From contig JAFGXR010000098.1 in the NCBI GenBank assembly GCA_016936555.1, forward strand, positions 1-55,729: DNA of 55,729 bases, in the 5' to 3' direction. The notes below the pieces were generated by a model. That model was not told the origin of the DNA. It saw only the letters and a program-made list of their open reading frames with translations, and searched no databases. The position numbers and the translations under genes are program-made. This stretch comes from Spirochaetales bacterium (GTDB taxonomy: Bacteria > Spirochaetota > Spirochaetia > DSM-2461). This document shows, in pieces, positions 24,739-41,947 of the stretch (position 1 is its first letter; the number at the start of each line of letters is the position of its first letter).

Positions 24739-24746
24739 GGAGCTCT

Positions 24747-26447
24747 ATGAATAAATTAAAGAAGGTGACAAAGGAGCTGGCAAAGCTCGGTCTCGGAGGA
24801 GACGTTCAGGCCTCCGAATTCCGCAAGTCGGTCCGTCTGACCGGTCATGTCGGTTCCTGGGATGAGAAAGTCGCGGCGGGATTCGCCGCGGCAAACAGGG
24901 GATACAAAGGGGTCCTCAACGATATCACTGTCGAGGGTGTCGGTGAGGAGAAGATTTACCGCTATGATCCGGGAGACCGGGATCTGGAAGGGCGTTATTT
25001 CGATGTCCTCATCATCGGAGGCGGTATCATAGGCTGCGCGACGGCCCGGGAACTGGCCCGGTATGACATTTCCATTGCCATTCTGGAGAAGGAAGAGGAT
25101 CTGGCCATGCAGACCTCCAGCCGGAACGACGGTATGATCCATCCGGGATTCGCCGCCCATCCGGGATCGAAAAAAGCCCATTACAACATCCTGGGAAACA
25201 GAATGTACACAAAGTGGGCCGAAGAGCTGGGTTTTGAACTGAAACGGCCCGGTTCTCTGGTCCTCTTTCCCTCTAGACTGGAAAAGTACCTGGTTCCCCT
25301 TATGAAGATGAGAGCCCGGAAAAACGGAGTCGACGGCCATTACCGGTACATATCCCGGAAGAAGGTTTTCGAAATGGAACCCAATGTCACGGAAGATCAG
25401 CAGGGGGCGTTCTTTCTTCCTTCGGCGGGCATCATCTCTCCCTATAAAGCGACGATAGCCATGGCGGAGAATGCCCTTCAGAACGGGGCGGATGTCTTTC
25501 TCAACTGCTTTGTCGAGTCCTTTGAGATGGACGGCGGGAGAATTGCCTCTGTCAGGATCGGCAGGGGAACCGTGAAGTGCGGCGCGGTGATCAACTGCGC
25601 GGGAAATTTCGCCGATATCATCGCCGAGCTTGCGGATGACCGTTTTTTCAGTCTCCACGGGCGTAAGGGGACGGAATGCATCCTCGACCGCAATACGGGG
25701 CTGACTCAGCACAGCATTCTCTCCATGCCCCGACTCATCCAGAGAAAATCAAAAACCAAGGGCGGGGGCGTCGTTCCCTGTATCGAGGGCAATATACTGC
25801 TCGGCCCCACGGCGGAGGAGCAGCCCTGGAGAGAGGACTTTTCCACAGACAGAGGCCATTTTCAGGAATTGCTGCAGAAACTGGACCTCAATACAAAACT
25901 GAGCGGCTCTTCGGTCATCACTTATTTCTCGGGGATCCGTCCCGCCTCCTGGGAGGAGGATTTTATTATCGAGCCTTCGGAGCGGGTGGCGAATCTGGTC
26001 CATGGCGCGGCGATACAATCCCCCGGAGTGGCCTCCGCTCCGGCTATAGCTGTCGACCTGGCAAAGATGACTGTTGATATTCTATCCAAAGATAAAACTG
26101 TCGAAGAAAAAACCGGCTTCAACCCCAGGCGAACCGTTTCCTACCATCAGATTGAAACCGTTGAAGAGCGCCGGGAAATGGTCGGGAAAAATCCACTGTA
26201 CGGCAATATCATCTGCCGGTGCGAGACCATTTCAGAGCAGGAGATCCGCGATGTTCTGCGGGGACCCATACCGGTTAATTCCCTCGATGGGGTCAAGAGG
26301 CGGATCCGGGCCGGTGCGGGACGCTGCCACGGCGGGTTCTGCACGCCGAAAATCATGGAGATCATATCCGACGAGCTGGGGATTCCCATGGTTGAAATCA
26401 CCCGGAAAGGAGACAGTTCGCCGGTTCTGTCGGGAGAGGCAAAATGA
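24747..26447 (+). CDS. GlpA-like FAD dehydrogenase with BON-like N-terminus and BFD Fe-S domain
   Basis: About 566 residues. Residues about 20-75 (VRLTGHVGSWDEKVAAGFAA then GVLNDITVEG) look like a BON domain. Then follows a DAO/GlpA flavoprotein with FAD-binding VLIIGGGIIGCATARELARY near residue 92, and at the end a BFD-like [2Fe-2S] domain with Cys in ICRCET and GRCHGGFC. Relatives are anaerobic glycerol-3-phosphate dehydrogenases. ATG 24747 has GAGGAG four bases upstream and is preferred over an in-frame GTG at 24735. It overlaps the next gene by four bases. Substrate not proven; a phosphorylated polyol made by the operon's kinase is likely. Confidence 0.82.
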   Translation: MNKLKKVTKELAKLGLGGDVQASEFRKSVRLTGHVGSWDEKVAAGFAAANRGYKGVLNDITVEGVGEEKIYRYDPGDRDLEGRYFDVLIIGGGIIGCATARELARYDISIAILEKEEDLAMQTSSRNDGMIHPGFAAHPGSKKAHYNILGNRMYTKWAEELGFELKRPGSLVLFPSRLEKYLVPLMKMRARKNGVDGHYRYISRKKVFEMEPNVTEDQQGAFFLPSAGIISPYKATIAMAENALQNGADVFLNCFVESFEMDGGRIASVRIGRGTVKCGAVINCAGNFADIIAELADDRFFSLHGRKGTECILDRNTGLTQHSILSMPRLIQRKSKTKGGGVVPCIEGNILLGPTAEEQPWREDFSTDRGHFQELLQKLDLNTKLSGSSVITYFSGIRPASWEEDFIIEPSERVANLVHGAAIQSPGVASAPAIAVDLAKMTVDILSKDKTVEEKTGFNPRRTVSYHQIETVEERREMVGKNPLYGNIICRCETISEQEIRDVLRGPIPVNSLDGVKRRIRAGAGRCHGGFCTPKIMEIISDELGIPMVEITRKGDSSPVLSGEAK

Positions 26448-27436
26448 AGAATGTCTACGATGTTATTGTCATCGGGGCCGGTCCCGCCGGCATGGCTTCA
26501 GCACTGACAGCCCGTGAAAAGGGTTCATCAGTCTTGATTATAGAGCGGGAGGACCGTCCCGGGGGCATACTCAACCAATGCATACACGACGGGTTCGGGC
26601 TGGTCAAATTCAATGAGAAACTGACCGGTCCCGAATATGCCGACCGCTATGTCCGATGGATTGACGAGGCCGGGATTGAGATTCTGACCAGCACTTTCCT
26701 GCTGGAACTTATAAAGGATGAGGATGAGTTCCGGATGAAACTGGTCAGCGCCGAAAAAGGCGTTTTTTCCCTCCGGGGGAAAGCCGTTGTTGTCAGCACG
26801 GGGTGCCGGGAGCGTTCGGACCGCCAGATCTTTATTCACGGAGACCGTCCGGCGGGTATCTTTACAGCGGGGCAGGCCCAGGCTTTTATCAACCGCATGG
26901 GGTATATGCCGGGCAGGCGGGCCGTTATTCTGGGAAGCGGCGACATCGGGTTGATAATGGCCAGGCGCCTGACTCTCGAGGGGGCGGAAGTGGAGGGTGT
27001 CTATGAGATTCAATCCCGGCCATCGGGTCTTCAGAGGAATATCAGCCAGTGTCTCAACGATTTCTCCATACCCCTTCATCTCGGCCGGACTGTATCCCGG
27101 GTCATCGGGAAAGGGCGCATCGAAGCGGTGGAAGTGGTTTCTGTCGATGAGCGGATGAATCCCGTAAAGGGAACGGAAGCCATTGTTCCCTGCGACTGTC
27201 TCATCCTCTCCGTCGGTCTGATTCCGGAGATCGATATTCTGAAAGATCTGCCTGTGGTTAAGGACGGAAAGACCGGCGGCATCGTGACGGATGACCGGAT
27301 GGAGAGTCCGCAGGTTCCGGGACTCTTCTCCTGCGGCAATGCCCACCATGTCTATGATCTTGTCGATTATGTTTCAGAGAGCGGGGAAATCGCCGGATCC
27401 GCCGCGTCGGAGTTCGCGAGGGAGGCCGCTATATGA
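26444..27436 (+). CDS. NAD(P)/FAD-dependent oxidoreductase subunit
   Basis: 330 residues of pyridine-nucleotide-disulfide oxidoreductase type without the redox disulfide: FAD motif VIVIGAGPAGMASAL at the start, second nucleotide motif VILGSGDIGLIMARRL near residue 162, and the late GLFSCGNAHHVYDLV motif. In Thermotoga, Clostridia and Treponema the same flavoprotein sits between a GlpA-like protein and a DUF1667 protein, which suggests a three-part complex passing electrons from the dehydrogenase to NAD(P) or quinone. Overlaps on both sides (ATGA) indicate tight coupling. Confidence 0.85.
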   Translation: MKNVYDVIVIGAGPAGMASALTAREKGSSVLIIEREDRPGGILNQCIHDGFGLVKFNEKLTGPEYADRYVRWIDEAGIEILTSTFLLELIKDEDEFRMKLVSAEKGVFSLRGKAVVVSTGCRERSDRQIFIHGDRPAGIFTAGQAQAFINRMGYMPGRRAVILGSGDIGLIMARRLTLEGAEVEGVYEIQSRPSGLQRNISQCLNDFSIPLHLGRTVSRVIGKGRIEAVEVVSVDERMNPVKGTEAIVPCDCLILSVGLIPEIDILKDLPVVKDGKTGGIVTDDRMESPQVPGLFSCGNAHHVYDLVDYVSESGEIAGSAASEFAREAAI

Positions 27437-27783
27437 AAAACATGACCTGTATTGTCTGTCCCAAAGGTTGTTCTCTTCAGATCGAAGAAAAGGAAAGCGG
27501 ATTTGAGGTCCGCGGCGCTCTGTGCCCCCGGGGAGAGCGATATGCCCTTCAGGAGATGACCGATCCGCGGCGGACTCTTCAGACGACAATCAGAACAGCG
27601 ATTCCCGGCTGCAGAAGAGCGGCTGTGAGGACGTCGAAGGAAGTTCCCCTCGGGGAGATCTTTTCCTATATGGATGCCATCAAAGGCGTTATTCTGGAAG
27701 AAAAAAAGGAATGCGGTTCCGTCCTGGCCCGGGGACTCTGCGGCAGCGATGTGGACCTGATTCTGACTGAGAGGTTGTACTGA
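27433..27783 (+). CDS. DUF1667 protein
   Basis: 116 residues with a Cys-rich start (CIVCPKGCSL, then ALCPRGERYA), the signature of DUF1667, followed by a small domain of unknown role. The four Cys near the N-terminus suit a metal or Fe-S site. DUF1667 genes regularly follow the two flavoproteins seen here, so it is probably the third subunit of the dehydrogenase. Its stop codon shares a base with the kinase start (TGATG). Confidence 0.85.
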   Translation: MKNMTCIVCPKGCSLQIEEKESGFEVRGALCPRGERYALQEMTDPRRTLQTTIRTAIPGCRRAAVRTSKEVPLGEIFSYMDAIKGVILEEKKECGSVLARGLCGSDVDLILTERLY

Positions 27784-29342
27784 TGGATAAACTGCTCCTT
27801 TCCGTGGACTGCGGAACCCAGAGCCTGAGAACCATTATTTTCGACAGGAGAGGAAACATCATCGAAAAGGCGAAGATGGAATATGAGCCCTATTTCAGCT
27901 CCCGTCCCGGCTGGGCGGAGCAGGACGGCGAGCTGTTCTGGAATTCTCTTGTCGAAGGGTGCCGCCGGCTGAAGGAAATGAACCCTGACGCCTTTGCCGC
28001 GATAGCCGCTGTGGGTATAACGGCTCAAAGGGACACCTGTGTCAATCTGGGCCGCGACGGCAAACCTCTACGCCCCGTCATCTCCTGGCTCGATAACAGG
28101 AAAGCCTCCCGGCAGTGGATTCCCAATCTGCTCTGGAAGATCATATACGGCGTCATCGGCATGACCGAAACGATTGCCAAGGTTCAGTGCGAGGGAAAAT
28201 CCAACTGGATCCGGGAACACGAGCCGGAAATCTGGGAGAAAACCTGGAAATATCTCGGTATTTCCGCCTTCCTCAACTACCGGCTTACCGGGGAGTTCCG
28301 GGACTCCATTGCCTCGACGATCGGCCACTACCCGGTCAATTACAAAAAACTCCGCTGGGAGAAAGCGGGAGGGCAGAACAGCAATCTCTTTCCCGTGGAG
28401 AAGGACAAGCTCTGGGAAATCGTCGAACCGGGAACCGTTGTCGGATATCTTCATGAAAAGGCCGCCGATGCGACGGGATTGCCTGCCGGAACGCCTGTTG
28501 TGGGCTGCGGCAGCGACAAGGGATGCGAAACCCTGGGGATGGGGGTGCTGGACGAGACGAAAGCCTCTCTCAGTTTCGGAACAACCGCCACAGTGCAGAC
28601 CACGTCGCACCGCTACTACGAACCGGTCCGTTTCATGCCGGCTTATCCCGCGTCGGTTCCACGGAAATTCAACCCCGAGCTGATGATCTACCGGGGGTTC
28701 TGGATGATCCGCTGGTTCCGCGATGAGTTCGGCTATGAAGAGCTGAAAAAAGCCGAGAAGACGGGCCGGATTCCCGAAGAGTATCTCAACGCCCTGCTCG
28801 ATGAAGTTCCCGCCGGTTCGCTGGGTCTGCTGGTTCACCCATTCTGGGGGCCGAGCCTTAAGAAACCCTTTGAAAAGGGCTCTATGATCGGTTTCGGCGG
28901 TGCTCACAAGAAATCCCACATGTACCGCGCCATCCTGGAAGGTCTGGGATATGCCCTCAGGGAAGGGTTGGAGAAAATCGAGAAGAAAAGCGGAAAGCAT
29001 GCGGAAAAGATCATGGTTTCGGGAGGCGCCAGCCAGAGCGACCGGATCTGCCAGCTCTCGGCGGATATTTTCGGACGGACCATGGTCCGGGGCAGGACGT
29101 ACGAAACATCGGCTCTGGGAGCGGCTATCAATACAGCCATGGGGATCGGCCTCTATAATTCCTATGAGGAAGCTGTGGAGCATATGGTTCATTACGAGGA
29201 GAAGGAATTCCATCCCGATAAAGAGAACAACGCTCTTTACGAGAAGCTCTATCCTATCTTCCTCAAAATCAATCCCCTGCTGGAAAACATATTCGACGAG
29301 ATTCAGGCCGCCACGGGCTATCCTGAAAAACTCAGCCTTTAA
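27783..29342 (+). CDS. FGGY-family sugar/polyol kinase
   Basis: 519 residues with the two actin-like domains of FGGY kinases: phosphate-1 segment LLSVDCGTQSLRTIIFD at the start, GWAEQDGELFW near residue 44, SWLDNRKA, a GCGSDKGCETLGMGV turn, and a late MVSGGASQSDRICQLSADIF motif. It phosphorylates a polyol or ketose with ATP. Similarity in the N-terminal part is closer to xylulokinase-like members than to classic GlpK (GWAEQD rather than the GlpK pattern), so the substrate may not be glycerol. Next to a GlpA-like enzyme, the product is likely its substrate. Confidence 0.85.
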   Translation: MDKLLLSVDCGTQSLRTIIFDRRGNIIEKAKMEYEPYFSSRPGWAEQDGELFWNSLVEGCRRLKEMNPDAFAAIAAVGITAQRDTCVNLGRDGKPLRPVISWLDNRKASRQWIPNLLWKIIYGVIGMTETIAKVQCEGKSNWIREHEPEIWEKTWKYLGISAFLNYRLTGEFRDSIASTIGHYPVNYKKLRWEKAGGQNSNLFPVEKDKLWEIVEPGTVVGYLHEKAADATGLPAGTPVVGCGSDKGCETLGMGVLDETKASLSFGTTATVQTTSHRYYEPVRFMPAYPASVPRKFNPELMIYRGFWMIRWFRDEFGYEELKKAEKTGRIPEEYLNALLDEVPAGSLGLLVHPFWGPSLKKPFEKGSMIGFGGAHKKSHMYRAILEGLGYALREGLEKIEKKSGKHAEKIMVSGGASQSDRICQLSADIFGRTMVRGRTYETSALGAAINTAMGIGLYNSYEEAVEHMVHYEEKEFHPDKENNALYEKLYPIFLKINPLLENIFDEIQAATGYPEKLSL

Positions 29343-29365
29343 TCAGAAAAAATAGGAGACGTGCA

Positions 29366-31114
29366 ATGGCTAAGAAAAAACTCACAATGCCGGCCTGGAA
29401 TCATCAGGCACCGGAACCGGGAACATACCGGTCTATCTTCAAATGGGGGGATCCCGATGAATTCAAACATCCGAGCGAGCAGCTTTTCGATCTGATCCGT
29501 TCGGAATTCGATCTTCCCGACAGCCATTTTGAAAAAACGGAGAATGAGGGATTTGAAAAGGTTGAGCTCCCCGATCATCCGTCGCTTCTCGACAGAAAGC
29601 ATGTCGAAGCTATAGGGGATATCGTCGGAGAGGAAAATATCTCCCTATCCGATTACGACCGCCTCAACTACTCCTCGGGGTACGCCATGGAGGAGATAAT
29701 GGAGATGCGCCGCGGCGAAGTTCACGAGATCTCCGACCTGGTTGTCCATCCCCGCCATAGCGATGATGTCAGGGCTGTCGTCCGATATTGTAATGAACAT
29801 GGAATTCCCGTCTATGTCTTCGGCGGCGGATCGTCGGTCAACTTCGGCCTCCGCCCGACGAAGGGGGGGATCACCCTGGTCATGTGCACCCACATGAATA
29901 AAGTCGTTGAGCTGAACGAGACGGACAAAACCTGTACCGTTCAGGCGGGCATGATGGGGCCGGCTTATGAAACGGCCTTGAACAACGCGAAAGAGCTCTT
30001 CGGAACGAAGCGGAACTACTGCTGCGGCCATTACCCCCAGTCCTTCGAATATTCCACAGTGGGCGGCTGGATCGTCACGCTCGGGGCGGGGCAGCAGTCA
30101 TCCTATTACGGCGATGCCTACGATATCGTCCTGGGAATGGAGTTCGTCACACCGGTCGGAGATATCAGAACCCATAATTTCAGGGCGACGGCGACCGGGC
30201 CCAAAGTAAACGATATCCTCAAAGGCTCGGAGGGGACTTACGGAATCTGCGTGGAGGTTACCTGCAAAATCTTCTACCATCAGCCGGAAAACTACGTTCC
30301 CATGGGATTCATGTTCAAAACCTTTGAAGAGGGGATCGCCGCGGCCAGAGAAATTTCCCAGGGCGAATTCGGCTTTCCCGGAGTCATGCGGATTTCCGAC
30401 GGCGAAGAGACCTCCATGGGGTTGAAACTCTACGGAATCGAAGGGACCTGGATGGGGACGGCTATCGACCTGTTCGGTTACAAGTCGGGAGAGAGAAGCC
30501 TCTTTCTCATGCAGGCCGAAGGGGAAAGGGGATTCGCCCGCAACGTGGCGAAAAATATCCGCAGGATCTGCCGGAAACACGGGGCCATGTACCTGACAGG
30601 CTATCCCATCAAAAAATGGGAGCACGGGCGGTACCGCGACCCCTATCTGAGAGAGGACCTGGGGGATTACGGTCTGATCATCGACACATTCGAGACATCG
30701 GTCAGCTGGAGCAATCTCCACAATCTCCATCAGAAGTTGAGAGAGTACATCAAGCAGCGCCCTCATACCATGGCCATGTCCCATGCCTCCCACTTTTATT
30801 CCGAAGGGACGAATCTCTACATTATATTCTTCACCCATATGGACCGGCTCGAGGAATACAGAATTTTTCAGAAGGGAATCTTTGAGACTATTGTCTCCAA
30901 TGGAGGATCATTATCACATCATCATGGTGTAGGCCGGATGATTTCTCCCTGGATGGAGGAGCATCTGGGTAAAGTTCAACTTGATGTTCTGAAGGCTTTG
31001 AAACGTCATTTTGATCCCAATAATATCATGAATCCCGGAGGACAGATGGGGGTTGATTTCGAAGCTTCCGATCTTGTCGATCACGAGTGGAGAATTGACT
31101 GGAAGAGTCTATAA
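29366..31114 (+). CDS. FAD-linked oxidoreductase of the alkyl-DHAP synthase (AGPS) type
   Basis: 582 residues. A PCMH-type FAD-binding domain (VYVFGGGSSVNFGL near residue 150, then the YSTVGGWIVTLGAGQQS segment) is followed by a cap domain with the AGPS hallmark SLSHHHGVGR near residue 516 and the TGYPIKKW...DYGLIIDTFET region that matches AGPS catalytic surroundings. AGPS swaps the acyl group of acyl-DHAP for a fatty alcohol in ether-lipid synthesis; bacterial relatives include alcohol and hydroxy-acid oxidases. AGGAGA precedes ATG 29366. It is the last gene of the operon, before a terminator. Reaction not determined. Confidence 0.82.
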   Translation: MAKKKLTMPAWNHQAPEPGTYRSIFKWGDPDEFKHPSEQLFDLIRSEFDLPDSHFEKTENEGFEKVELPDHPSLLDRKHVEAIGDIVGEENISLSDYDRLNYSSGYAMEEIMEMRRGEVHEISDLVVHPRHSDDVRAVVRYCNEHGIPVYVFGGGSSVNFGLRPTKGGITLVMCTHMNKVVELNETDKTCTVQAGMMGPAYETALNNAKELFGTKRNYCCGHYPQSFEYSTVGGWIVTLGAGQQSSYYGDAYDIVLGMEFVTPVGDIRTHNFRATATGPKVNDILKGSEGTYGICVEVTCKIFYHQPENYVPMGFMFKTFEEGIAAAREISQGEFGFPGVMRISDGEETSMGLKLYGIEGTWMGTAIDLFGYKSGERSLFLMQAEGERGFARNVAKNIRRICRKHGAMYLTGYPIKKWEHGRYRDPYLREDLGDYGLIIDTFETSVSWSNLHNLHQKLREYIKQRPHTMAMSHASHFYSEGTNLYIIFFTHMDRLEEYRIFQKGIFETIVSNGGSLSHHHGVGRMISPWMEEHLGKVQLDVLKALKRHFDPNNIMNPGGQMGVDFEASDLVDHEWRIDWKSL

Positions 31115-31265: not shown

Positions 31266-31294
31266 TTGACGGCACTAAAAATCAGATTGATAAT
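31266..31294 (+). promoter_or_regulatory. Promoter of the starch locus
   Basis: -35 TTGACG (31266-31271), 17-base spacer and -10 GATAAT (31289-31294). Transcription would begin near 31301, inside the first operator, leaving an unusually long leader of about 310 bases before the first gene. Confidence 0.7.
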
Positions 31295-31300
31295 TGCAAA

Positions 31301-31316
31301 ATGCAAGCGATTGCAT
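31301..31316. promoter_or_regulatory. LacI-type operator O1
   Basis: ATGCAAGCGATTGCAT, a 16-bp near-perfect palindrome of the form bound by LacI-family repressors such as MalR or CcpA-like proteins. It directly overlaps the expected transcription start and abuts O2. Together the two are embedded in a longer inverted repeat (31297-31309 with 31324-31336, 13-bp arms). Confidence 0.75.
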
Positions 31317-31332
31317 ATGCAAGCGCTTGCAT
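31317..31332. promoter_or_regulatory. LacI-type operator O2
   Basis: ATGCAAGCGCTTGCAT, a perfect 16-bp palindrome immediately next to O1. It shares the TGCAAGCG...TTGCA core with O1 and O3, indicating one common regulator, which is not encoded in this window. Confidence 0.78.
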
Positions 31333-31375: not shown

Positions 31376-31403
31376 CCCGCAATGCAAGCGGTTGCATTGC
31401 GGG
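31376..31403. promoter_or_regulatory. LacI-type operator O3 within a 28-bp inverted repeat
   Basis: The operator core is ATGCAAGCGGTTGCAT (31382-31397). It sits inside a longer repeat with 12-base arms CCCGCAATGCAA and TTGCATTGCGGG around GCGG. It is 65 bp downstream of O2 (about six helical turns), which would allow a looped repressor complex; in RNA the same sequence would form a stable hairpin in the leader. Confidence 0.72.
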
Positions 31404-31610: not shown

Positions 31611-33596
31611 GTGTATAAAAAGCTTTTTGCTGCTTTTCTGCTGTTAACATTTTCGTTATCCGTTTATGCGGATATTCAGGTTGTTCAGCTGGAAGGTGAT
31701 AGTGTGGAGATCATCTTCACCTATGAAGACGATTCTGCCGCGGCGATGAATGTTATCGGCTCTTTTGACGGATGGATCGTCCCCGGGGACCCTATGGAGA
31801 AAAACGGGCAGGGACTCTGGGAATATCGTCTGACAGCGACAGTCGACGATGAGATTCAGTACAAATTCTATGACGACGGTAACTGGATCACCGATCCCAT
31901 GGCACCGGCGGAAAAAGATGACGGTTTCGGAGGGGCGAACGGCCTGATCATTGTCGCCGATTTGCTGGGTATGAGCGAGGTCGCCGCAGCCGGCACGGAT
32001 GGTTCTGATGCCGAAGAGACCGTCGTTCCGGCTTTTAAAAGCAAGTTGAACTTCGGAATGTATACCATTCTCGGATCCAGGACCACATTTTCAACCCAGG
32101 CTGTAGCTGACAAGACAATAAAAGGCCTTGAAACGGACAGTACGGGAATCTCGGGAAAATCATACTGGAAAATCGGCGGCGATATTACGCCCCGTTCCAA
32201 CATCTGGTTTGAATTAATGGTTCTTGATGGTTATCAGCCGGTTTGGGAGCAGGACGCTACGGGTACCGTAACGACCGCTACTGATACGGGATTGAGCGGA
32301 CTGTTCACCGGATTGTTTGTAAATCCCGTTCATTTTATCGAAGGCGGTGATCCCGCTCTGAATTCAATCAAGGCGGGAATTGAAACCCCCTGGATTGAAA
32401 TCGATTCCGGGTACGGATACGCAAAACCGAGAACCCGTTCATCGGTTCTCTGGGAAACGCTGAACGAAAGAGATGCCAACGACGGCTATGTCCGCTTTGA
32501 TCTGGGATCGGAAATCTCAAAAATCGGTGATGTCGATATCGAAGCCACCTTCGCTCCCAACAAAATGTCGGGAAATCTTGGTCTCTTTTCCTGGATCGGC
32601 GCGGACTTCGGCAAGTTTAAATTCGATTTTCAATACGATGCGAAATCGGTGGCCACCGATTCTCTTGAGAACCTCTTCGAGAAATTGTATCACCAGGATC
32701 TGATCCTCGGACTGAATCTCGATCTCTCTTTCATTGAAATCTCCGCTCAGTCCATGGTCAACCTCTACAGTGAGACCGATTTTGCCTTCGGGGACAATTT
32801 TTCCGGAGAGCTTTTTGTCGAAATGGAAAATGAGAAGCGAAGTCTGGGCGCCAGCGCGGGATACCGCTATGTGGGCTCCGGATCGGAATTCCTCTTTGGA
32901 AATAATGATGATCTCGGCGACAAGGGGACCCAGGTGATCTACGCCTCTCTTTACGGGAAACCCGTAGATATGCTTAAGCTGGGATTCAATACGAGCGCGA
33001 CTCTTGTGACAGACAACCTGGATAACAATGATGTTGAGCTTTACGGGAAAATCTACTCCGATCTTGAATTGACTTCTCTCTTCGGACATACGACATGGTT
33101 CAATGCCTATGCCGACATGAAATATCTGCTGAAGAAAGATTATGTCTATGACGCCAGTCTTTCCAAATACCTTTTCCGGTACTTCGGTATGAAATTCTTT
33201 ATGGATAAACCGGCTGAGGGAATTGATGGGATGGATATCTACTACGGGCTGAATAACCGCGATGAAGAACATGTCTTCAACACTCTGATCTCAAGCTTCC
33301 GGATGTCTAATAATTTCAATGCCGAGCTGGGACTGGGGCTCAGGACTCCCAGATCCGTACTGTCTCAGACAGAAAAAGATTCAACAAACTATTTCGGTTT
33401 CTCCATCGGCGGTTCCTGGCAGATACCGGCGCCGAAAATCAAGTCCCCCGTTCTTTACGGAGCCTTTGTCTTCAATATGGATCCCTACGACGACGGAACG
33501 AACAATCTCAAAATGGAAGATTACACGACAGATGGCGGATCCGATAAATCCGATGGTTCAGCTCAGTTCAGGCTGATGATGAAATGGGACTTCTAA
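31611..33596 (+). CDS. CBM48/E-set domain fused to predicted outer-membrane beta-barrel (paralogue 1)
   Basis: 661 residues from GTG 31611 (GGAGG six bases upstream). A signal peptide (KKLFAAFLLLTFSLSVYA) is followed by a glycogen-binding-type E-set domain, about residues 22-115 (MNVIGSFDGWIVPGDPMEKN, LWEYRLTATVDDEIQYKFY), like AMPK-beta and CBM48. After an acidic linker come about 500 residues of alternating strand pattern ending FRLMMKWDF, a terminal-Phe beta-signal recognised by BamA in outer-membrane proteins. It is paralogous to the 34096 protein. Role inferred: a maltodextrin-binding porin or receptor. I do not know a described family with this architecture. Confidence 0.72.
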   Translation: MYKKLFAAFLLLTFSLSVYADIQVVQLEGDSVEIIFTYEDDSAAAMNVIGSFDGWIVPGDPMEKNGQGLWEYRLTATVDDEIQYKFYDDGNWITDPMAPAEKDDGFGGANGLIIVADLLGMSEVAAAGTDGSDAEETVVPAFKSKLNFGMYTILGSRTTFSTQAVADKTIKGLETDSTGISGKSYWKIGGDITPRSNIWFELMVLDGYQPVWEQDATGTVTTATDTGLSGLFTGLFVNPVHFIEGGDPALNSIKAGIETPWIEIDSGYGYAKPRTRSSVLWETLNERDANDGYVRFDLGSEISKIGDVDIEATFAPNKMSGNLGLFSWIGADFGKFKFDFQYDAKSVATDSLENLFEKLYHQDLILGLNLDLSFIEISAQSMVNLYSETDFAFGDNFSGELFVEMENEKRSLGASAGYRYVGSGSEFLFGNNDDLGDKGTQVIYASLYGKPVDMLKLGFNTSATLVTDNLDNNDVELYGKIYSDLELTSLFGHTTWFNAYADMKYLLKKDYVYDASLSKYLFRYFGMKFFMDKPAEGIDGMDIYYGLNNRDEEHVFNTLISSFRMSNNFNAELGLGLRTPRSVLSQTEKDSTNYFGFSIGGSWQIPAPKIKSPVLYGAFVFNMDPYDDGTNNLKMEDYTTDGGSDKSDGSAQFRLMMKWDF

Positions 33597-33612
33597 AATG
33601 GAGAAAAAGAAA

Positions 33613-34086
33613 ATGAAAAATATAATACAACTTCTTTTTGTTACACTGACAGCTGTCCTTTTTCTCAGCGGATGCGGTTCTGTTCTTCACAACGGAACAG
33701 TCATGGCTCTTGAGGAAGTGACAATCACCGGACTACCGGCCAATCCCTACGGGGAAGGGCAGACAATGGTCTTTTCCTATAACAAAGGAAACGAATGGAT
33801 TCACGACACAGATGATCTGGATAATCCCGTTTATCAGGCTGATGTCACGGCCGACGGTTCTCTGACATTCACCTTTGCGCCCCCTCTGGAAATAACAACA
33901 GCCACTCTCACATTTCTGCTCATAGACCCCGACCTTACTTGGGCTTCCCTGAAGATCGATAAAAAACACAGCGGTCTCAGCGGAGGGGATATCGAACTGG
34001 AAAACAGCTGGGGCGGGCTGGCTTCGCCGGAAACCATTGTCGGAACAGTCGATGGAGACGATGTGGAATGGGAATACCAGGAATAG
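33613..34086 (+). CDS. Small lipoprotein between the two barrel paralogues
   Basis: 157 residues from ATG 33613 (GGAG nine bases upstream; an in-frame ATG at 33598 is possible). A lipoprotein signal peptide ends in FLSGC, so the mature protein is anchored by lipid. The rest is one beta-sandwich-like domain (VTITGLPANPYGEGQTMVFS, then LTFLLIDPDLTWASLKIDKK). The linear pattern resembles a carbohydrate-binding module, with exposed Trp residues (NEWIHD, LTWASL, NSWGG, VEWEY), but no family is recognised. Position suggests an accessory of the barrel proteins. Confidence 0.7.
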   Translation: MKNIIQLLFVTLTAVLFLSGCGSVLHNGTVMALEEVTITGLPANPYGEGQTMVFSYNKGNEWIHDTDDLDNPVYQADVTADGSLTFTFAPPLEITTATLTFLLIDPDLTWASLKIDKKHSGLSGGDIELENSWGGLASPETIVGTVDGDDVEWEYQE

Positions 34087-34095
34087 GAGTAGGTA

Positions 34096-36072
34096 ATGAA
34101 TAAAAGACTAATAGCGGCCTTTGCAGCACTGCTCTGTTTAGGTATGAGCTTGTTTTCCGATGTTAAAGTGACGGACCGCGGCGACGGGACAGTGGATATT
34201 CTTTTCACCACCCCCGATGACGGATACGGGGATCTCTATCTGATCGGTTCCTTCAACAGCTGGGTTGAGCCCGGCGATGCGATGGTTCTCGGTGCGGACA
34301 ATATCTGGGAGATTTCCCTGGAAGCGGATTCTCTCGATGAAATCAAATACAAGTTTTTCTGCGACGGTGCATATATCAGTGATGTCAATGCTCCGGATGA
34401 AGTCGATGACGGATTCGGAGGATTCAACGGACTGGTCGTCGTGGAAGATCTTCTCAATGCAGAACCGGTTGTAGCCGAAGCGGCGGAAAGCGGTGAAGCC
34501 GTTGCGACCGATGTTCCCGTCAAAAGAGAAAAACTGGCATTCGGTACAGTTACCTATATCGAAAGCGAAACAAATTTCAATTCCGATCAAGGAGATTTCG
34601 AGGGAACCGATTCTCTGCTGAATTCAAAATCGGTTTGGACCTTGAAAGGCGATGCCGTCAAAAGGATGCCGGTGCACCTGGAAGTTCTCTTTTTTGAGGG
34701 GTCGGTTCCGGTCTGGGAGAAGGATCCCGCTCCGGCTGACGATACGGTTGATGGCGTGGAACTCGTCGACGGGCTCGAAAAACTCGGTGCCGGTCTGATT
34801 TTCGTGCCGGCTTATTATCTGGGCGGTAACAATCGCCCGGTCCTCGATCAGATCAGTTTCGGCTTCGATACACCCTGGATCAGTTATGAAACGGGTTACG
34901 GCAGTGCAGCCGTTCCTGCCAGGACATCTATTATCTGGGATACGATCGAGGAAGATGGAACCGATGCCGGCGATGGGTACAGTCTTTTCAGATTGGGAGA
35001 GGATCTGAGGGAAATCGGTGATTTTTCACTGGATCTCGCGGTCATGCCCCATAAGAGTCTGAATGATTATTACGGATTGACAGCATACGTTTCAGGGGAG
35101 TATGGACCGGCTGTTCTTGATTTTCAGTATAATCTGAGGACATCGACAACAGATGATCCCAAAGAGCTCTTTCAGGATCCAGCGCGGCAGGACATCATCG
35201 CCGGAGCCGGTGTCTATGTCGGTCCCCTTTCTGTGGAAACCCAGTTCCTCTATTCCATCTATCTCCAGGGCGGTACGGTAAACGCAAGACCCTTTGCCGA
35301 TAAAATGGCCCTGGAAGGACTGCTCGGGTTTGAAAAAGAAGATCTTTTCGGAGCCGAGTTGGGATTTAAATACAGAGGTTTTGCCGCGCAGATGCTTTTT
35401 GCCGACAATGACTCGGTTCTCGGTGAATCAGAAACCATGACTTTCAGCGCCGGCGGCTGGATGCAGTTCGGTAATAAAATCGTTCCGCGCCTGAATGGGG
35501 AAGCGGTCATTCCCAACGGATCGCAAGCCGGAGGGAACGTAGCCATCTCCTTCACTCCCGGTGTCGGAATCGAAATGCCCTTCGGCGAAGCAACCATGAG
35601 TCTCGACGCCTCGGTGACAATGGGTATCGATACGCAGCCCGCTGCGGGAGACAGTTCTTTTTATCTGGCCGATATCGTGGCCGATTTCAGTACCGGTATG
35701 CTTATCCCCGGAGTACTGGAAGGATTGAATATCCATTACAGCCTCGATAACAGCACGACAGATGACCTGTTCAACACCCTTCTGGCCGAAGCGGACTTTC
35801 CCTATGGTCTGAAAGCCCAGCTGGGAGCCGGTCTCCGGACAGGAGATGCTGTTGATAATCCCTTCGGTATTTTCGCCGGAGCGGCCTGGAAAATTGATGA
35901 GGAGCAGGTGTTTTCTCCTGAGCTCTACATCAATTTCACCTTCAATATGGACCCCTATGACGCGGATAACCGTACGGCTTACAAGTACGACGGCGACGGC
36001 CTCCTCGATGAAGGCTCTGCCAAATCCGATGGCAACAGCGCTCTGAGACTGGGCGTTCAGTGGTCCTACTGA
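34096..36072 (+). CDS. CBM48/E-set domain fused to predicted outer-membrane beta-barrel (paralogue 2)
   Basis: 658 residues with the same plan as the 31611 protein: signal peptide (KRLIAAFAALLCLGMSLFS), E-set domain at about 22-115 (LYLIGSFNSWVEPGDAMVLG, WEISLEADSLDEIKYKFF), linker, and a long strand-rich region ending LRLGVQWSY, a terminal-Tyr beta-signal. Matching internal landmarks (ENLFEKLYHQDLI in one, KELFQDPARQDII in the other; FNTLISSFRM and FNTLLAEADF) show they arose by duplication. AGGAGT precedes ATG 34096. Divergence in the barrel suggests different ligand sizes or partner roles. Confidence 0.72.
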   Translation: MNKRLIAAFAALLCLGMSLFSDVKVTDRGDGTVDILFTTPDDGYGDLYLIGSFNSWVEPGDAMVLGADNIWEISLEADSLDEIKYKFFCDGAYISDVNAPDEVDDGFGGFNGLVVVEDLLNAEPVVAEAAESGEAVATDVPVKREKLAFGTVTYIESETNFNSDQGDFEGTDSLLNSKSVWTLKGDAVKRMPVHLEVLFFEGSVPVWEKDPAPADDTVDGVELVDGLEKLGAGLIFVPAYYLGGNNRPVLDQISFGFDTPWISYETGYGSAAVPARTSIIWDTIEEDGTDAGDGYSLFRLGEDLREIGDFSLDLAVMPHKSLNDYYGLTAYVSGEYGPAVLDFQYNLRTSTTDDPKELFQDPARQDIIAGAGVYVGPLSVETQFLYSIYLQGGTVNARPFADKMALEGLLGFEKEDLFGAELGFKYRGFAAQMLFADNDSVLGESETMTFSAGGWMQFGNKIVPRLNGEAVIPNGSQAGGNVAISFTPGVGIEMPFGEATMSLDASVTMGIDTQPAAGDSSFYLADIVADFSTGMLIPGVLEGLNIHYSLDNSTTDDLFNTLLAEADFPYGLKAQLGAGLRTGDAVDNPFGIFAGAAWKIDEEQVFSPELYINFTFNMDPYDADNRTAYKYDGDGLLDEGSAKSDGNSALRLGVQWSY

Positions 36073-36165: not shown

Positions 36166-37374
36166 ATGAAAAAAGTGGTATTATGGCTCTTGGCTCTAAT
36201 AACAACCCTCTCTTTTGTCGCCTGTTCAAATCCGGCCGGTTCCGACGGCACCGATGATACAACAACTGACGGTCTGACTTCGGAATGGTGGATCAAGGGA
36301 AGTTTTGATAACTGGACGGATGATCCTCAACATTTTTTCACAATGGATGAGCTGGATAACAATATCCTTTCTTTTGAAATTACAGATCTCTTTGCACTCG
36401 GTTACGAATTCGTTCTGGTAAACCCCGCCGGTAATGAACTGAAAAGTGATGGCGCCATAACCCTTAACGGGGATGGTGATGCAGAGACAATTACCTATGC
36501 CGTTGATTCGGGTAACAATTTCTACTTTGATGCGGCTTACTCTTCCTACACAGTTCAGATAGATATAACTGATACAGATGCTCCTGTCATGAAGCTTATC
36601 CCCGGAGATACGACAGCTGCAGCTCCTGATTTTGCCACGCTTGCTGACAATCTCAAGATCAAAGGAGATCTTTTTTCTATCGGTTGGACTGATACAGCCG
36701 GTGATGCCGACGATGCAACGAACACTGTTACTTTCCATGTTGTTGCTGGAAGTAAAACAGGAAGTTTCGGTTTTAATTCTCTTGACGGATTCCTGAAAAA
36801 TGCAGCCGATACATCAACATATACAACAGTTGGCGACAGTTCAGGAGCTCTTGCTCTCGCAACTGACGGCAGCAACTGTACTATCGAAAATATTCCTAAT
36901 TCCGATTCGGAATTTGACATTATCGTCACGATCGATCCCGACGGAGCAACCGTTGCGGATAAATACAGCATGGAAATTGTTCTTTCAGTACTTGGAACAG
37001 TTCCTTGGGCATTTGAGGCACCTTCTGATTTCTGGCTTGTCGGAGACATCAAGGATACTGTCCTCGACGGTTGGGATGAAACTGATGCAGGACGTGTCCA
37101 GCTGACGCTCACAGATGATGTAGCCACTTATACCTGGACGGCAACTGCCGATGGCACTGCGGAATTCAAATACGCTGTAGCGGCTGAATCCGGATGGAAC
37201 AATCTCGTCGGTTATTCCGGCATTGACGGATCCGCATCGACAATCGCTGTTTCAGATGTAGGTGGGAATATCACATTTCCGGTTACTTCCGGAACTGAGT
37301 ACACCCTGACGGTAGATTTCTCAGGCACTTATACTGCTACCGGTCTGCCTGAAGTTGATGTTGCGTCAAACTAA
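36166..37374 (+). CDS. SusE/SusF-like lipoprotein with three tandem starch-binding domains
   Basis: 402 residues. A lipoprotein signal ends in FVACS (Cys at about residue 20). Three similar domains of about 110 residues follow, each opening with a hydrophobic-G-D/S-W pattern: EWWIKGSFDNWTDD, LKIKGDLFSIGWTD and FWLVGDIKDTVLDGWDE. This is the domain plan of Bacteroides SusE/SusF starch-binding lipoproteins, though it is recognised here only by pattern. The composition is unusually rich in Asp, Thr and Ala, with little Lys. Anchored in the outer membrane, it would hold starch at the surface. Confidence 0.7.
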   Translation: MKKVVLWLLALITTLSFVACSNPAGSDGTDDTTTDGLTSEWWIKGSFDNWTDDPQHFFTMDELDNNILSFEITDLFALGYEFVLVNPAGNELKSDGAITLNGDGDAETITYAVDSGNNFYFDAAYSSYTVQIDITDTDAPVMKLIPGDTTAAAPDFATLADNLKIKGDLFSIGWTDTAGDADDATNTVTFHVVAGSKTGSFGFNSLDGFLKNAADTSTYTTVGDSSGALALATDGSNCTIENIPNSDSEFDIIVTIDPDGATVADKYSMEIVLSVLGTVPWAFEAPSDFWLVGDIKDTVLDGWDETDAGRVQLTLTDDVATYTWTATADGTAEFKYAVAAESGWNNLVGYSGIDGSASTIAVSDVGGNITFPVTSGTEYTLTVDFSGTYTATGLPEVDVASN

Positions 37375-37482
37375 AAACAGAAAAAATGGTTTTTTTCAAA
37401 TAAGTTGAATAGAGCTGACTGCTGTCTCTGTTCCGGAATCTTCCGGTCTGAACAGCAGTTTAGCTCATTTCCGGGAGGTAGG

Positions 37483-39333
37483 GTGATTCGCTTTATCAGC
37501 AGATATTTATATTTTCTATTTCTCATTATTCTGATCAGTGCATCCGCCTCCTGCTCTATTATCCCCGGAACTCATACCATGCCCGCAGGCTGGGCATACG
37601 GTTCAACTTATTTAAAAACGGAAGGCTTCACCAGATTTGTTCTTTACGCTCCCGGAGCCGACTCCGTCTCACTTTCCGGATCGTTTAACGATTGGGGTGC
37701 AACGGAAATGGAACGAAGCGGCGATAATTTCTGGATCGAAATCGAAGGGGCAGGGCCAGGCGATCCCTACAAATACCGTTCCCTCTCTTTTGAAGGGGAG
37801 TGGATCGCCGATCCCTGCAGCCTTTTCATCACGAATGATTCCTACGGGAACTCTATCATCGTCGATCCTGCGGGATTGAACGCCGCGCACAACTGGTCCG
37901 ATGGATCGTGGTCCCGCCCGGACCGCGATGAGCTTGTTATTTATGAAATGCATGTCATCGATTTCACCTGGAACAACCGGTCCGGTCCGGCTCCCGGTGT
38001 GGAACCGGGGCATCAGGGCACTTTTGCCGGTGTGGCCGACCGGTCTGATTATCTGGCGGACCTCGGCATCAACGCCGTGGAACTGATGCCCGTGCAGGAG
38101 TGGCCCGGCGGTTCCTACAGCTGGGGATATAATCCCTATCTCTTTCTGGCTCTCGAGAGCAGCCTGGGGACAGGGGACGGCAGCTCCGTTATAAAAGAAT
38201 TTAAAGAAATGGTGGATACGCTTCATCAGAAGGGAATCGCCGTTATACTCGATGTGGTCTACAACCATACGACCGGGGATTCGCCTCTTTATAAAATCAA
38301 TAAAGATCAGTTCTTCGATGGAGATACGCCCTGGGGGCCGAAGCTGGACCTGACGGATGATTATGTTTTCAATCATGTCCGGGAAAGTCTGATTCATTTT
38401 ATGGATGAGTATCATGTCGACGGATTCCGCTTCGATTCCACTGAAAATATCGATGGAGAGGCTTTAAGAGATCTTGTCACGGAACTCAGCGACAGCGGGT
38501 ATGACAGTCATTATTACATTTTTGAAGAATTCAACGGAGTCCACAACGCTGCGATTCAGAGCTACAACAGCCTTTACGGTTACGCCCGAATTTCCAGCTG
38601 GGGGACCGGTTTCAAAGAGGGACTCTTCAGCGCCCTGAATGACAGCTATTATGGTTCTCTCGGCGATATCACCTACCATTCCAATTCATACGGTTTTACA
38701 TTCAGCGATTCCGCTATTACTTACGGCAGTTCCCACGATGAGGGAACTCTCTTTTATCATTCCGGTCTAAAGAGCCGATTGACCTTGACAGCTCTGACCC
38801 ATGAACTGACTTCTCTCGGCCTGCCCATGATCTGGATGGGAGACGAAATCATGCGGGACCACCGGGGGAATAATCCGGTTTCCGGCAGCGGTGTCGATGA
38901 ACTGAATAATCAGATGGACTGGGTATCGTTAATGAACTCAAATGAAGATGAATTGCAGTTCGTCCGGGACCTTCTGGCTCTCAGAAGAAATCATCCCTCT
39001 CTGAGACGGGGCCTCTCATCGCCCGATTCGCATCCGGGGAGTTTTTCCGACGGATTCGAATGGAATACCGACTGGGAATCGGGCTTTCTGGGTTACGTGC
39101 TCGGAGAACAGGGCGACAGGCCTTTTGCAATCTTCATAAATTACGGAAACAGTTCCCGAACTTTCAATGCTTTTTTTCCGGAGGACGGAAGCTGGACTCC
39201 CGTTCTCGATTCGTCGCAGCCGAAGGTTCTCGAAACAGGTACCGGACCGGCTCTGGAAGTCGCTTCCGGAAATTCTGAAATAACGGTTCCGGCCGATGGA
39301 GCACTCATATATGCCGGGCCGGTTAATCTATAA
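37483..39333 (+). CDS. Lipoprotein GH13 alpha-glucan enzyme with N-terminal CBM48
   Basis: 616 residues from GTG 37483 (GGGAGG upstream; the longer frame starts with a Cys-rich peptide without ribosome site). The lipoprotein signal ends in ASASC. A CBM48 (about 35-120, FTRFVLYAPGADSVSLSGSF) precedes the GH13 barrel with conserved regions DVVYNHTT, DGFRFDSTENI (nucleophile Asp), YIFEEFNG (acid/base Glu) and GSSHDEGT (transition-state Asp). It resembles branching-enzyme/trehalohydrolase-like members of GH13, but an extracellular lipid-anchored form suggests a debranching or amylase role. The exact activity cannot be told. Confidence 0.8.
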   Translation: MIRFISRYLYFLFLIILISASASCSIIPGTHTMPAGWAYGSTYLKTEGFTRFVLYAPGADSVSLSGSFNDWGATEMERSGDNFWIEIEGAGPGDPYKYRSLSFEGEWIADPCSLFITNDSYGNSIIVDPAGLNAAHNWSDGSWSRPDRDELVIYEMHVIDFTWNNRSGPAPGVEPGHQGTFAGVADRSDYLADLGINAVELMPVQEWPGGSYSWGYNPYLFLALESSLGTGDGSSVIKEFKEMVDTLHQKGIAVILDVVYNHTTGDSPLYKINKDQFFDGDTPWGPKLDLTDDYVFNHVRESLIHFMDEYHVDGFRFDSTENIDGEALRDLVTELSDSGYDSHYYIFEEFNGVHNAAIQSYNSLYGYARISSWGTGFKEGLFSALNDSYYGSLGDITYHSNSYGFTFSDSAITYGSSHDEGTLFYHSGLKSRLTLTALTHELTSLGLPMIWMGDEIMRDHRGNNPVSGSGVDELNNQMDWVSLMNSNEDELQFVRDLLALRRNHPSLRRGLSSPDSHPGSFSDGFEWNTDWESGFLGYVLGEQGDRPFAIFINYGNSSRTFNAFFPEDGSWTPVLDSSQPKVLETGTGPALEVASGNSEITVPADGALIYAGPVNL

Positions 39334-39348
39334 AATGAGGAGATTTTA

Positions 39349-41037
39349 ATGAAATGGAATAAGATAGGGATTGGAGCGGCTTTTCTCTCCGCCGCTGCAA
39401 TCTTTTTTACCGGCTGTGCCAGTCAAACGGAGCTGCCTCCGCCGCCGGCGCCCCGTTCTAGCGAACCGGTGGCCGATATTTCCCCCTACAGAGGAACCTT
39501 CAGTGATCTCAGGCAGAACCACTGGAACGACAGGGTCTTTTATGAGATTTTCGTAAGGAGTTTCAAGGACTCCGACGGAGACGGCATTGGCGATCTGAGA
39601 GGGATTATCGACAGCCTCGACTATCTCAATGACGGCGATCCTTCAACCGGCGATGACCTGGGCATAACAGGTATCTGGCTCATGCCCGTCAATTCCTCGC
39701 CCAGTTACCACGGCTACGATGTAACCGATTACTTTTCCATCAATTCCGACTACGGGACAATGGATGATTTCAGAGAGCTTCTTTCTGAAGCGCATAAACG
39801 GGGGATCATCGTTATCATGGACCTTGTTCTGAATCACACAAGTACGGAGCACCCATGGTTTCAGAAGAGCCGGAGCGGCGATCCCGATTACATCAATTAT
39901 TACAGATGGGCCGATGGAAGACCCGATCTGAAAGGGCCCTGGGGGCAGGATGTGTGGCACGGCGCGGGCGGAAACAGAAGCTACTATGGTTTGTTCTGGT
40001 CCGGTATGCCCGATCTGAACTACAACAATGAAAAGGTGACGGAAGAAGTCTATGATATCATCGATTTCTGGCTTTCCGATATCGGTGTCGACGGATTCAG
40101 ACTGGACGCCATTATGTATCTCATCGAAGAAGGCAATGAGCTGATGAATACCTTTTCGACTCTGAAATGGTTTGAGAATTTTCACAGTCATTACAAAGCG
40201 GTGAATCCCGATGCCTTCACGATCGGAGAAGTCTGGTCGACAACGGAAAACTCCGTGGAGTATGTGGGAGATAAAGTTGATACGGTTTTCGAGTTCGATC
40301 TGGCGTCCTCCATGGTCGGATCGGTTCAGCAGAGCCGGAATTCCGCCATCTACGCCCAGCAGGAAAACGTTCTGGAAAACTATCCCGAAAGTCAGTACGG
40401 CCGCTTCCTCACCAATCATGATCAGGACAGGATCGCAACGGTCCTCAACGGCAGCCGGGACAAACTGAAAATGGCCGCATCTCTGCTTCTGACAGGGCCC
40501 GGCGTCCCCTTTATCTATTACGGTGAGGAGATCGGAATGGAAGGGGGAAAACCCGATGAGAATATCCGCCGTCCCTATCCCTGGACCGGGACGGGCGGTT
40601 TCACATCCGGGAAGCCCTGGGAAGACTACGGTCCCGGTAAAGAGGAAAATAATCTCCAGTCCCAGAGGGGGGTTGAGGACTCTCTCTACGAACATTATAG
40701 ATCTTTGATCTCTCTCAGAAACGAAATCCCGGCGCTCCGTAAGGGCGGAACCTTCCATATCAACACAGACAGCCGGAAAGTCTATTCCTTTGTCCGATAC
40801 GATGAGGAGGAGGCTTACCTGGTCATTCTGAATCTCGGCCGGGAAATGGAAGGCCCGGGATTCTATGCGGAAAAAACTCCCTGGCCGCAGGGTTTCTCTC
40901 TGGTACCGGTGTTCGGTTCGGCAGAAGCGGCGGATCTGGAGAATCCCGATGGAGAGGGAGGATTTTCCCGCTATCAGCCATTGGACAATCTGGAGGCTTA
41001 TTCTACCTATGTCTTCCGTATTGTTCCTCATAATTAA
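39349..41037 (+). CDS. Lipoprotein alpha-amylase, GH13 (MPDLN type)
   Basis: 562 residues. The lipoprotein signal ends in FFTGC, followed by a Pro-rich linker (PPPPAPRSSEPV) and a full GH13 domain: MDLVLNHT, GVDGFRLDAIMYL (nucleophile), FTIGEVWS (acid/base) and FLTNHDQDR. The fifth conserved region reads MPDLN, the mark of the group between oligo-1,6-glucosidases and neopullulanases (GH13_36). It should cut alpha-1,4 links in starch or maltodextrins at the cell surface. GAGGAG precedes ATG 39349, 15 bp after the previous stop. Confidence 0.88.
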   Translation: MKWNKIGIGAAFLSAAAIFFTGCASQTELPPPPAPRSSEPVADISPYRGTFSDLRQNHWNDRVFYEIFVRSFKDSDGDGIGDLRGIIDSLDYLNDGDPSTGDDLGITGIWLMPVNSSPSYHGYDVTDYFSINSDYGTMDDFRELLSEAHKRGIIVIMDLVLNHTSTEHPWFQKSRSGDPDYINYYRWADGRPDLKGPWGQDVWHGAGGNRSYYGLFWSGMPDLNYNNEKVTEEVYDIIDFWLSDIGVDGFRLDAIMYLIEEGNELMNTFSTLKWFENFHSHYKAVNPDAFTIGEVWSTTENSVEYVGDKVDTVFEFDLASSMVGSVQQSRNSAIYAQQENVLENYPESQYGRFLTNHDQDRIATVLNGSRDKLKMAASLLLTGPGVPFIYYGEEIGMEGGKPDENIRRPYPWTGTGGFTSGKPWEDYGPGKEENNLQSQRGVEDSLYEHYRSLISLRNEIPALRKGGTFHINTDSRKVYSFVRYDEEEAYLVILNLGREMEGPGFYAEKTPWPQGFSLVPVFGSAEAADLENPDGEGGFSRYQPLDNLEAYSTYVFRIVPHN

Positions 41038-41077: not shown

Positions 41078-41947
41078 ATGAAAAAAACAAGGAAAGTCTC
41101 TTTTTTTACGGGATTGATCCTGCTCATAGGTTCTATGGTATTCGCCTCAGGTGCGAAAGATGATTTCAGCAGGATGAAAGCGCCGGTCAAAGGTTCGGCG
41201 GATACGGATATGTCGGCTGCTGAAATCTACAGTATGTATCCCCTGAATGTTCTGCCGGGGACTCTGGTTTCCATCAGCGGAGACGGTTTCGGAGATACCG
41301 CCGGTATCATTTACATTGACGGCATCGGCATCGATGAATTCTACGGATGGGATAACAACACCATATGGGTCAAGGTTCCCGAAACGGAAAGTTCTGAAAT
41401 GGAAGTGCAGGCGGGTATGTCCGTTGCGGAGGATTTACTCTACAGGGCGCCCGAGGGAAGCATCACGGTTCGCTGGGTTGTCGATGCCGATGCCCTTCAG
41501 GCTGTTGCCGATGCAACCTTTGATAAGTATAAACTGGATTTTGCCCCCATGTGGAAATTCCCTCTTCACATTAAGGGAGAGTGGGTCAAGTCCGGCGACG
41601 GATTCGGAAATAAGAGCGGCAGCTGGGACGGCGGATCGAGACGGCTTATGTGGAACCAGCCTGAAACGGGACTCTGGATTTCCGAAGTTGTCTTCACCCC
41701 TGAAAACATGGAGAGCTATAAACCCGGCGTCATGAAATTCGCTTTCGAAGACAGCGAGGATGAAGCCCGTAATATAGCGACTTTTGAAAGCGATATGGCC
41801 TTTATCCTGAAAAAGGAGTGGGCCAAAGCCGATCCTTTTACGGATATCAGCAGTGACCCCGCCGTTCGGGTGGGAACTACAAGCCGATTTTACAATGAGA
41901 GAAACAACACCATTCAGATCAGCTACCCTGTGGCTGAGTCAAAATAA
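41078..41947 (+). CDS. Exported IPT/TIG-like accessory protein of the starch locus
   Basis: 289 residues with a signal peptide (FFTGLILLIGSMVFASG). Residues about 45-130 (MYPLNVLPGTLVSISGDGFG, then YIDGIGIDEFYGWDNNTIWV) look like an IPT/TIG immunoglobulin-like domain, as in SusE/SusG-associated and other surface proteins. The C-terminal 130 residues have a Trp-rich sandwich pattern (WKFPLHIKGEWVKSGDGFG, WNQPETGLWISEVVF) that could bind glucan. AAGGAG precedes ATG 41078. Not recognised as a whole; position between amylase and pullulanase suggests an accessory role. Confidence 0.68.
   Translation: MKKTRKVSFFTGLILLIGSMVFASGAKDDFSRMKAPVKGSADTDMSAAEIYSMYPLNVLPGTLVSISGDGFGDTAGIIYIDGIGIDEFYGWDNNTIWVKVPETESSEMEVQAGMSVAEDLLYRAPEGSITVRWVVDADALQAVADATFDKYKLDFAPMWKFPLHIKGEWVKSGDGFGNKSGSWDGGSRRLMWNQPETGLWISEVVFTPENMESYKPGVMKFAFEDSEDEARNIATFESDMAFILKKEWAKADPFTDISSDPAVRVGTTSRFYNERNNTIQISYPVAESK

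Follow-up and report, generated by a model that had tools for sequence, protein, structure and literature searches.

A pair of genes for predicted outer-membrane proteins, referred to here as OMP1 and OMP2, has been detected in a 55,729 nucleotide stretch of DNA (the window, contig JAFGXR010000098.1) from a Spirochaetales bacterium with a genome of 4.73 Mb that is 95% complete (assembly GCA_016936555.1). Both genes lie on the forward strand, with OMP1 (661 aa; 31611-33596) starting at a GTG codon just downstream of an AGGAGG motif and OMP2 (658 aa; 34096-36072) forming a second open reading frame, and genome searches place the closest named relatives of both in Spirochaetia. The two proteins are paralogues sharing 32% identity end to end (679 columns, E 2e-101), each joining an N-terminal carbohydrate-binding module (CBM) of the CBM48 type to a C-terminal barrel. 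Between them lies the gene of a companion lipoprotein, lip1 (33598-34086, forward strand; lipobox LSGC), in which the cysteine is followed by an LHN motif. This arrangement had been proposed in a sequence-only reading of the same DNA, and both the two-part plan of the large proteins and the tandem copies flanking a lipoprotein gene have been borne out. In OMP1, a signal peptide recognised by eye (approximately residues 1-20, MYKKLFAAFLLLTFSLSVYA; 31611-31670) is followed by the CBM48/AMPK1_CBM domain (residues 22-114; 31674-31952), assigned from Pfam and family matches, and by a predicted transmembrane barrel of about 24 strands (residues 145-661; 32043-33593). In OMP2, Pfam matches and alignment place the CBM48 domain at approximately residues 23-116 (34162-34443), and the barrel (34516-36069) aligns with that of OMP1 over its whole length. 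This full-length homology indicates that OMP2 has an OMP1-like fold; OMP2 also matches the barrel profile (5.3e-170), in the building of which its own sequence was included.

Taken by themselves, the window proteins match the domain models weakly and below threshold, with 21.6 bits for AMPK1_CBM against a Pfam cut-off of 26.8, and 18.7 and 15.4 bits for CBM_48 against a cut-off of 22.4. Among 24 full-length relatives, matches occur to CBM_48 in 23 and to AMPK1_CBM in 22 (E<=0.1; best 1.7e-13), so that the assignment is firm across the family although the single-sequence matches are weak. The glycogen-contacting residues of AMPK-beta (W100, K126, W133 and N150) correspond in OMP1, in a register set by alignments, to W55, K85, W92 and N110, and all four positions are kept in 24 of 24 relatives, W92 as either Trp or Tyr. 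The AMPK-beta/CBM48-like domain suggested earlier is thereby upheld, and binding of alpha-glucan by the CBM48 of OMP1 and OMP2 is predicted from these residues. AMPK-type CBM domains have also been found elsewhere in the genome (C126:57796-58266 and C52:104471-104623), in open reading frames of 231 and 249 aa without a barrel (L001, L002, L006, L007). Small secreted proteins consisting of CBM48 only occur in Treponema (L101 9944-10303, L102 5170-5553 and L053 11911-12369), the copy in L053 having an N-terminus in common with the adjoining full-length protein, as if by partial duplication.

An AlphaFold2 model of OMP1, built with the 24 relatives, has a pTM of 0.73 and a mean pLDDT of 83, which exceeds 75 in most blocks of the barrel, and DSSP assigns 24 long strands to it between residues 145 and 660. 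The model is confidently that of a closed barrel of about 24 strands. When this model is searched with Foldseek, the PapC and FimD usher pores rank first, and VIA-align superposes it on PapC (7lhh) with a Z of 18.8 over 386 residues at an rmsd of 4.0 A, covering model residues 137-661. The 24-strand usher pores are the best match to the fold, whereas 18-strand barrels of the OprD/AlgE type and Wzi, considered as alternatives, reach a Z of 15-17 in alignments that end near residue 531. The alternation of hydrophobicity between the two faces of the strands amounts to 1.33, compared to 0.55 (sd 0.08) after shuffling, with none of 2000 within-strand shuffles reaching as high a value; the lipid face is 72% hydrophobic and the inside 30%, a difference that is partly by construction, since hydrophobicity served to tell the two faces apart. 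C-termini of the form ...W-D-F/L, which fit the beta-signal as had been noted for the window copies, are found in nearly the whole family. A signal peptide, a closed amphipathic barrel and a C-terminal beta-signal are therefore all present, as in an outer-membrane beta-barrel protein. The barrel of the porin that had been envisaged is retained here, with a size much wider than that of a maltoporin. Apart from isolated sub-threshold matches, the barrel is covered by no Pfam or NCBIfam model in the 24 members, and no convincing PDB sequence match has been obtained beyond the CBM.

The connections between the strands are of two clearly different kinds. The 12 connections after odd strands have a mean of 17.2 residues and differ from one relative to another (sd 4.9), while the 11 after even strands have a mean of 4.3 residues and scarcely vary (sd 0.7), a contrast that is significant for both length and variability (p 1e-4 and 2e-4). 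Since the number of strands is even and the short turns follow the even strands, both termini of OMP1 lie on the short-turn side, which in known outer-membrane proteins is the periplasmic one. The CBM48 is thus predicted to lie in the periplasm or in the lumen of the barrel, on the inner side of the outer membrane. A module exposed on the surface, catching starch outside the cell, is disfavoured by this topology. The idea of a porin carrying its own starch-binding module accordingly stands as regards the fusion itself and fails as regards the grabbing of starch from outside.

Upstream of OMP1, a putative sigma70-like promoter (TTGACG-17-GATAAT, 10 of 12 consensus positions; 31266-31294, forward strand) is located just 5' of three palindromic LacI-type operators, found by a pattern search of the genome at 31302-31315 (TGCAAGCGATTGCA), 31318-31331 (TGCAAGCGCTTGCA) and 31383-31396 (TGCAAGCGGTTGCA). 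Across the 4.73 Mb, TGCAANCGNTTGCA is matched at 10 sites, these three included, and the reversed pattern used as a control at none. The other sites lie at MalQ followed by GH13 (L205), MalQ (L210), glycogen phosphorylase (L207), GH31 (L208), a GH13 operon (L204) and an operon for a solute-binding protein, ABC transporter and LacI regulator (L206), with the last separating a chemoreceptor gene from one of GntR type (L209). Judging from these gene contexts, nine of the 10 sites accompany alpha-glucan or sugar-transport genes. In the remaining case (L209 position 3027; C12:41526), the operator is found just upstream of a gene for a methyl-accepting chemotaxis protein and divergent to the GntR-type gene, and a possible coupling of chemotaxis to the maltodextrin regulon may be considered. 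At two loci of Treponema (L050 8443-9456 and L052 10860-11879), the direct neighbour of the barrel gene is a gene that, judging from the N-terminal sequence, resembles those of LacI-family regulators.

Downstream of OMP2, all on the forward strand, follow a second lipoprotein, lip2 (36166-37374), a GH13 enzyme with CBM48 (37405-39333; PF00128 1.6e-17, PF02922 3.7e-8), a GH13 lipoprotein (39349-41037; PF00128 2.7e-96), a TIG-domain protein (41078-41947; PF01833 1.8e-4) and a pullulanase with the Pfam architecture PUD-CBM48-GH13 (41963-44752). The protein lip1 shares its start, a cysteine followed by LHN or LHD, with its orthologues and with the companions at the galactan loci described below; it had been called Trp-rich, and while it is a lipoprotein, the few Trp residues that are invariant among its homologues make that description overstated. 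The lip1 model is beta-rich, and a starch-binding CBM was considered for its fold and set aside, as CBM41, CBM25, CBM26 and CBM20 reach a VIA-align Z of at most 6.3, below a meaningful level and tied with transthyretin and a fimbrial anchor. The lip2 protein has a SusE/F-like look and is orthologous among relatives with tandem OMPs. Homology of lip1 and lip2 to SusD or SusE/F was likewise rejected, with weak CBM_48 similarity in one of six lip2 members and no match at E<=1 between the lip2 profile and PDB sequences. Further upstream in the window (24070-31114), a run of genes resembling a glycerol-type catabolic operon encodes a GntR regulator, an FAD-dependent oxidoreductase (DAO + BFD), a pyridine nucleotide oxidoreductase, an FGGY kinase and an FAD-oxidase_C/FAD_binding_4 protein, which is perhaps related to alkylglycerone-phosphate synthase.

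The fusion is no peculiarity of this genome, as full-length relatives are found across Spirochaetia, in Treponema saccharophilum, T. porcinum, T. ruminis and T. socranskii, in Brucepastera, Rectinema and Gracilinema, and in many metagenome-assembled genomes, with barrel profile matches in 24 of 347 genomes of the class (E<=1e-5). Members share the barrel, an adjacent lipoprotein and enzymes matched to the substrate, with an LHN or LHD companion at most loci. The tandem cassette OMP1-lip1-OMP2-lip2 recurs in several other genomes, and in the tree the OMP1 sequences and the OMP2 sequences form separate groups (the OMP2 of the window falling with those of three relatives), which indicates that the duplication took place before those genomes diverged. 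GH13 genes lie near 18 of the 22 CBM-bearing loci, 17 in the stretches examined and one, in genome G245, in a wider flank (L059; GH13/pullulanase upstream). Given that the genome of the window has only 14 GH13 matches in 4.7 Mb, well under one per locus would be expected by chance.

The plan is widespread without being uniform. Seven genomes carry the same barrel without a CBM, preceded by a short N-terminal peptide only, and at these loci a GH53 endo-galactanase adjoins the barrel gene in seven of seven, GH35 beta-galactosidase is present in five and GH13 in none. The 22 CBM-bearing loci have neither GH53 nor GH35 (Fisher p 6e-7, where the seven CBM-less members are one clade, so that the tallies of GH53 and GH13 do not represent independent events). 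In a midpoint-rooted tree whose root is not established, this clade (100/100) branches within the CBM-bearing members, next to the GH13-linked L041, a position that suggests loss of the CBM upon the switch of specificity to galactan. The companion lipoprotein is retained in the galactan loci with the cysteine-LHN/LHD start of lip1, a start that recurs at several other CBM-bearing loci and is found at most but not all loci of the family. Read in this way, the comparison would show that the accessory domain follows the sugar while the barrel-lipoprotein pair stays, as expected of a channel family with exchangeable specificity. The galactan loci themselves (L163-L166 and L200-L202, Treponema-type), with GH53, the CBM-less barrel, an LHN/LHD lipoprotein, further lipoproteins and, in five, GH35, are apparently the spirochaete counterpart of a polysaccharide utilization locus, as yet without a name. 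In the two read furthest upstream, ABC-type sugar transport genes, identified from sequence, precede the barrel gene.

Regarding other routes across the outer membrane, model searches of the genome found neither a TonB-receptor barrel (PF00593) nor LamB (PF02264), E. coli and other controls being detected, and none of the 24 family members has a plug or TonB-receptor match in Pfam. Taking into account the genes, the operators and these searches, a role in starch uptake, as first supposed, fits all of the context. OMP1 and OMP2 are probably TonB-independent outer-membrane import channels for alpha-glucan chains, and it is likely that import is passive or lipoprotein-assisted, with the CBM48 meeting the chain on the inner side. 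The substrate would be maltodextrins or limit dextrins that the co-operonic GH13 enzymes release from starch, and a single-chain barrel of about 24 strands would be wide enough for them even when they are long or branched. The likely constriction is the conserved loop that connects strands 3 and 4. At or in the periplasmic mouth, the CBM48 would bind the emerging chain and hold or ratchet it inward for an ABC transporter, while the LHN lipoprotein may dock on the channel as a lid or receptor, the functional counterpart of SusD.

A number of observations weigh against this import model, apart from the common ancestry of the galactan loci. Transport is putative, being read from genes, models and context. 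One ExbD homologue is present in the genome, making some energy coupling conceivable, and in a genome that is 95% complete an absent receptor could fall in a gap. The distribution is patchy, the family being absent from three congeneric genomes (G446, G473 and G497), and four of the 22 CBM-bearing loci have no GH13 in the stretch examined. Finally, the linker (residues 123-142) has a pLDDT below 50, so that the model leaves the relative position of CBM and barrel unset; a CBM hanging below the barrel and one plugging its lumen are indistinguishable on this basis.

Such a luminal CBM48, acting as a gating plug that leaves on glucan binding, is a variant of the import model and, among those for the position of the domain, an unlikely one. 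TonB receptors usually have a plug at the N-terminus, and the usher pore, whose size the OMP1 barrel matches, is filled by one of beta-sandwich fold; the CBM-less relatives, in which the same barrel is kept with a short peptide in front, indicate that a plug is inessential. A different function, also improbable, would be that of a Slam-like exporter that moves lip1, lip2 and the GH13 lipoprotein to the surface, with the periplasmic CBM recruiting alpha-glucan enzymes. At most loci a lipoprotein gene immediately follows the barrel gene, and an usher-sized pore would be wide enough for protein, but the CBM tracks the sugar, being present with GH13 and absent beside GH53, whereas the lipoprotein stays regardless, and the retained glucan-contact residues would be needless for protein export. 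Slam proteins moreover combine N-terminal TPR repeats with a 14-strand barrel, whereas a CBM takes the place of the TPR here, the strands number about 24 and none of the 24 proteins matches a Slam model in Pfam. The least probable proposal, a surface or periplasmic scaffold that keeps glucan together with amylases at the outer membrane and does not itself serve as the import pore, could draw on the CBM, the co-operonic GH13 enzymes, the several lipoproteins and the utilisomes of Bacteroidetes, in which enzymes and lipoproteins assemble on a core barrel (PMC7618045), but a 24-strand barrel far exceeds the need of an anchor, and searches of the genome turned up neither a TonB receptor nor a further maltodextrin porin.

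In kind, the family looks like an outer-membrane sugar channel, and its CBM48-barrel plan seems undescribed. The earlier impression that no described family has this plan agrees with searches of Pfam, NCBIfam, PDB sequences and the open-access literature, including a survey of T. pallidum outer-membrane proteins (PMC8407342); the term "carbohydrate-binding" is absent from a survey covering 76 families of outer-membrane pores (PMC4827864). In the literature found, import of polysaccharide fragments across the outer membrane of spirochaetes is not established, and the family, which occurs in cultivated Treponema species as well as in environmental spirochaetes, provides a concrete, testable candidate with a natural control, the CBM being present beside starch genes and absent beside galactan genes. 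If the model is true, the barrel would stand out as uncommonly wide for a pore that belongs to no secretion system, and a channel with a glycan-binding module at its inner face would offer a novel way of giving passive uptake a direction. As a tentative generalisation, which is rather less likely than not, an usher-sized TonB-independent channel with a small lipoprotein might use a periplasmic, substrate-specific CBM to trap the chain and make diffusion directional, the CBM being lost on the switch to galactan, and might constitute a further kind of system beside LamB-type porins and TonB-driven SusCD.

Compared to known systems, the closest solved barrel folds are those of the PapC and FimD ushers, which align across the entire 24-strand barrel of OMP1. 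Sequence identity is nonetheless 8%, none of the 24 members matches the usher family (PF00577) in Pfam, and the operon is a carbohydrate locus with GH13 and lipoprotein genes in place of chaperone or pilus genes. The CBM48 retains the glycogen-contact positions of the AMPK beta-subunit, but where that domain sits on a kinase scaffold or a GH13 enzyme, the copy described here is joined to a transmembrane barrel. Proteins in other phyla combine one or two CBM48 domains with a strand-rich, outer-membrane-like C-terminal region whose final residue is aromatic; they come from Thermotogota (L104 2-1393, judged from its own sequence), Krumholzibacteriia (L106 2259-4766), Cloacimonadota (L107 9908-11971) and an uncultured bacterium (L113 7713-9773). 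Profile comparison with the last three aligns the CBM (99.5%) and not the barrel, which argues against a single origin for all such proteins, hinting that the fusion may have arisen more than once. With the LamB maltoporin, the family has in common the proposed passive import of maltodextrin and an apparent co-regulation with maltodextrin metabolism, and it differs in having about 24 strands rather than 18, a fused CBM and no PF02264 match. The likeness to SusC/SusD of Bacteroidetes is that a channel and a lipoprotein are encoded side by side at a substrate-specific locus, which also encodes glycoside hydrolases and other lipoproteins; the OMPs differ in that they match neither a TonB-receptor barrel nor a plug and have about 24 strands rather than 22 and an N-terminal CBM48, and the companion lipoprotein, with no Pfam match above the cut-off, is far smaller than SusD.

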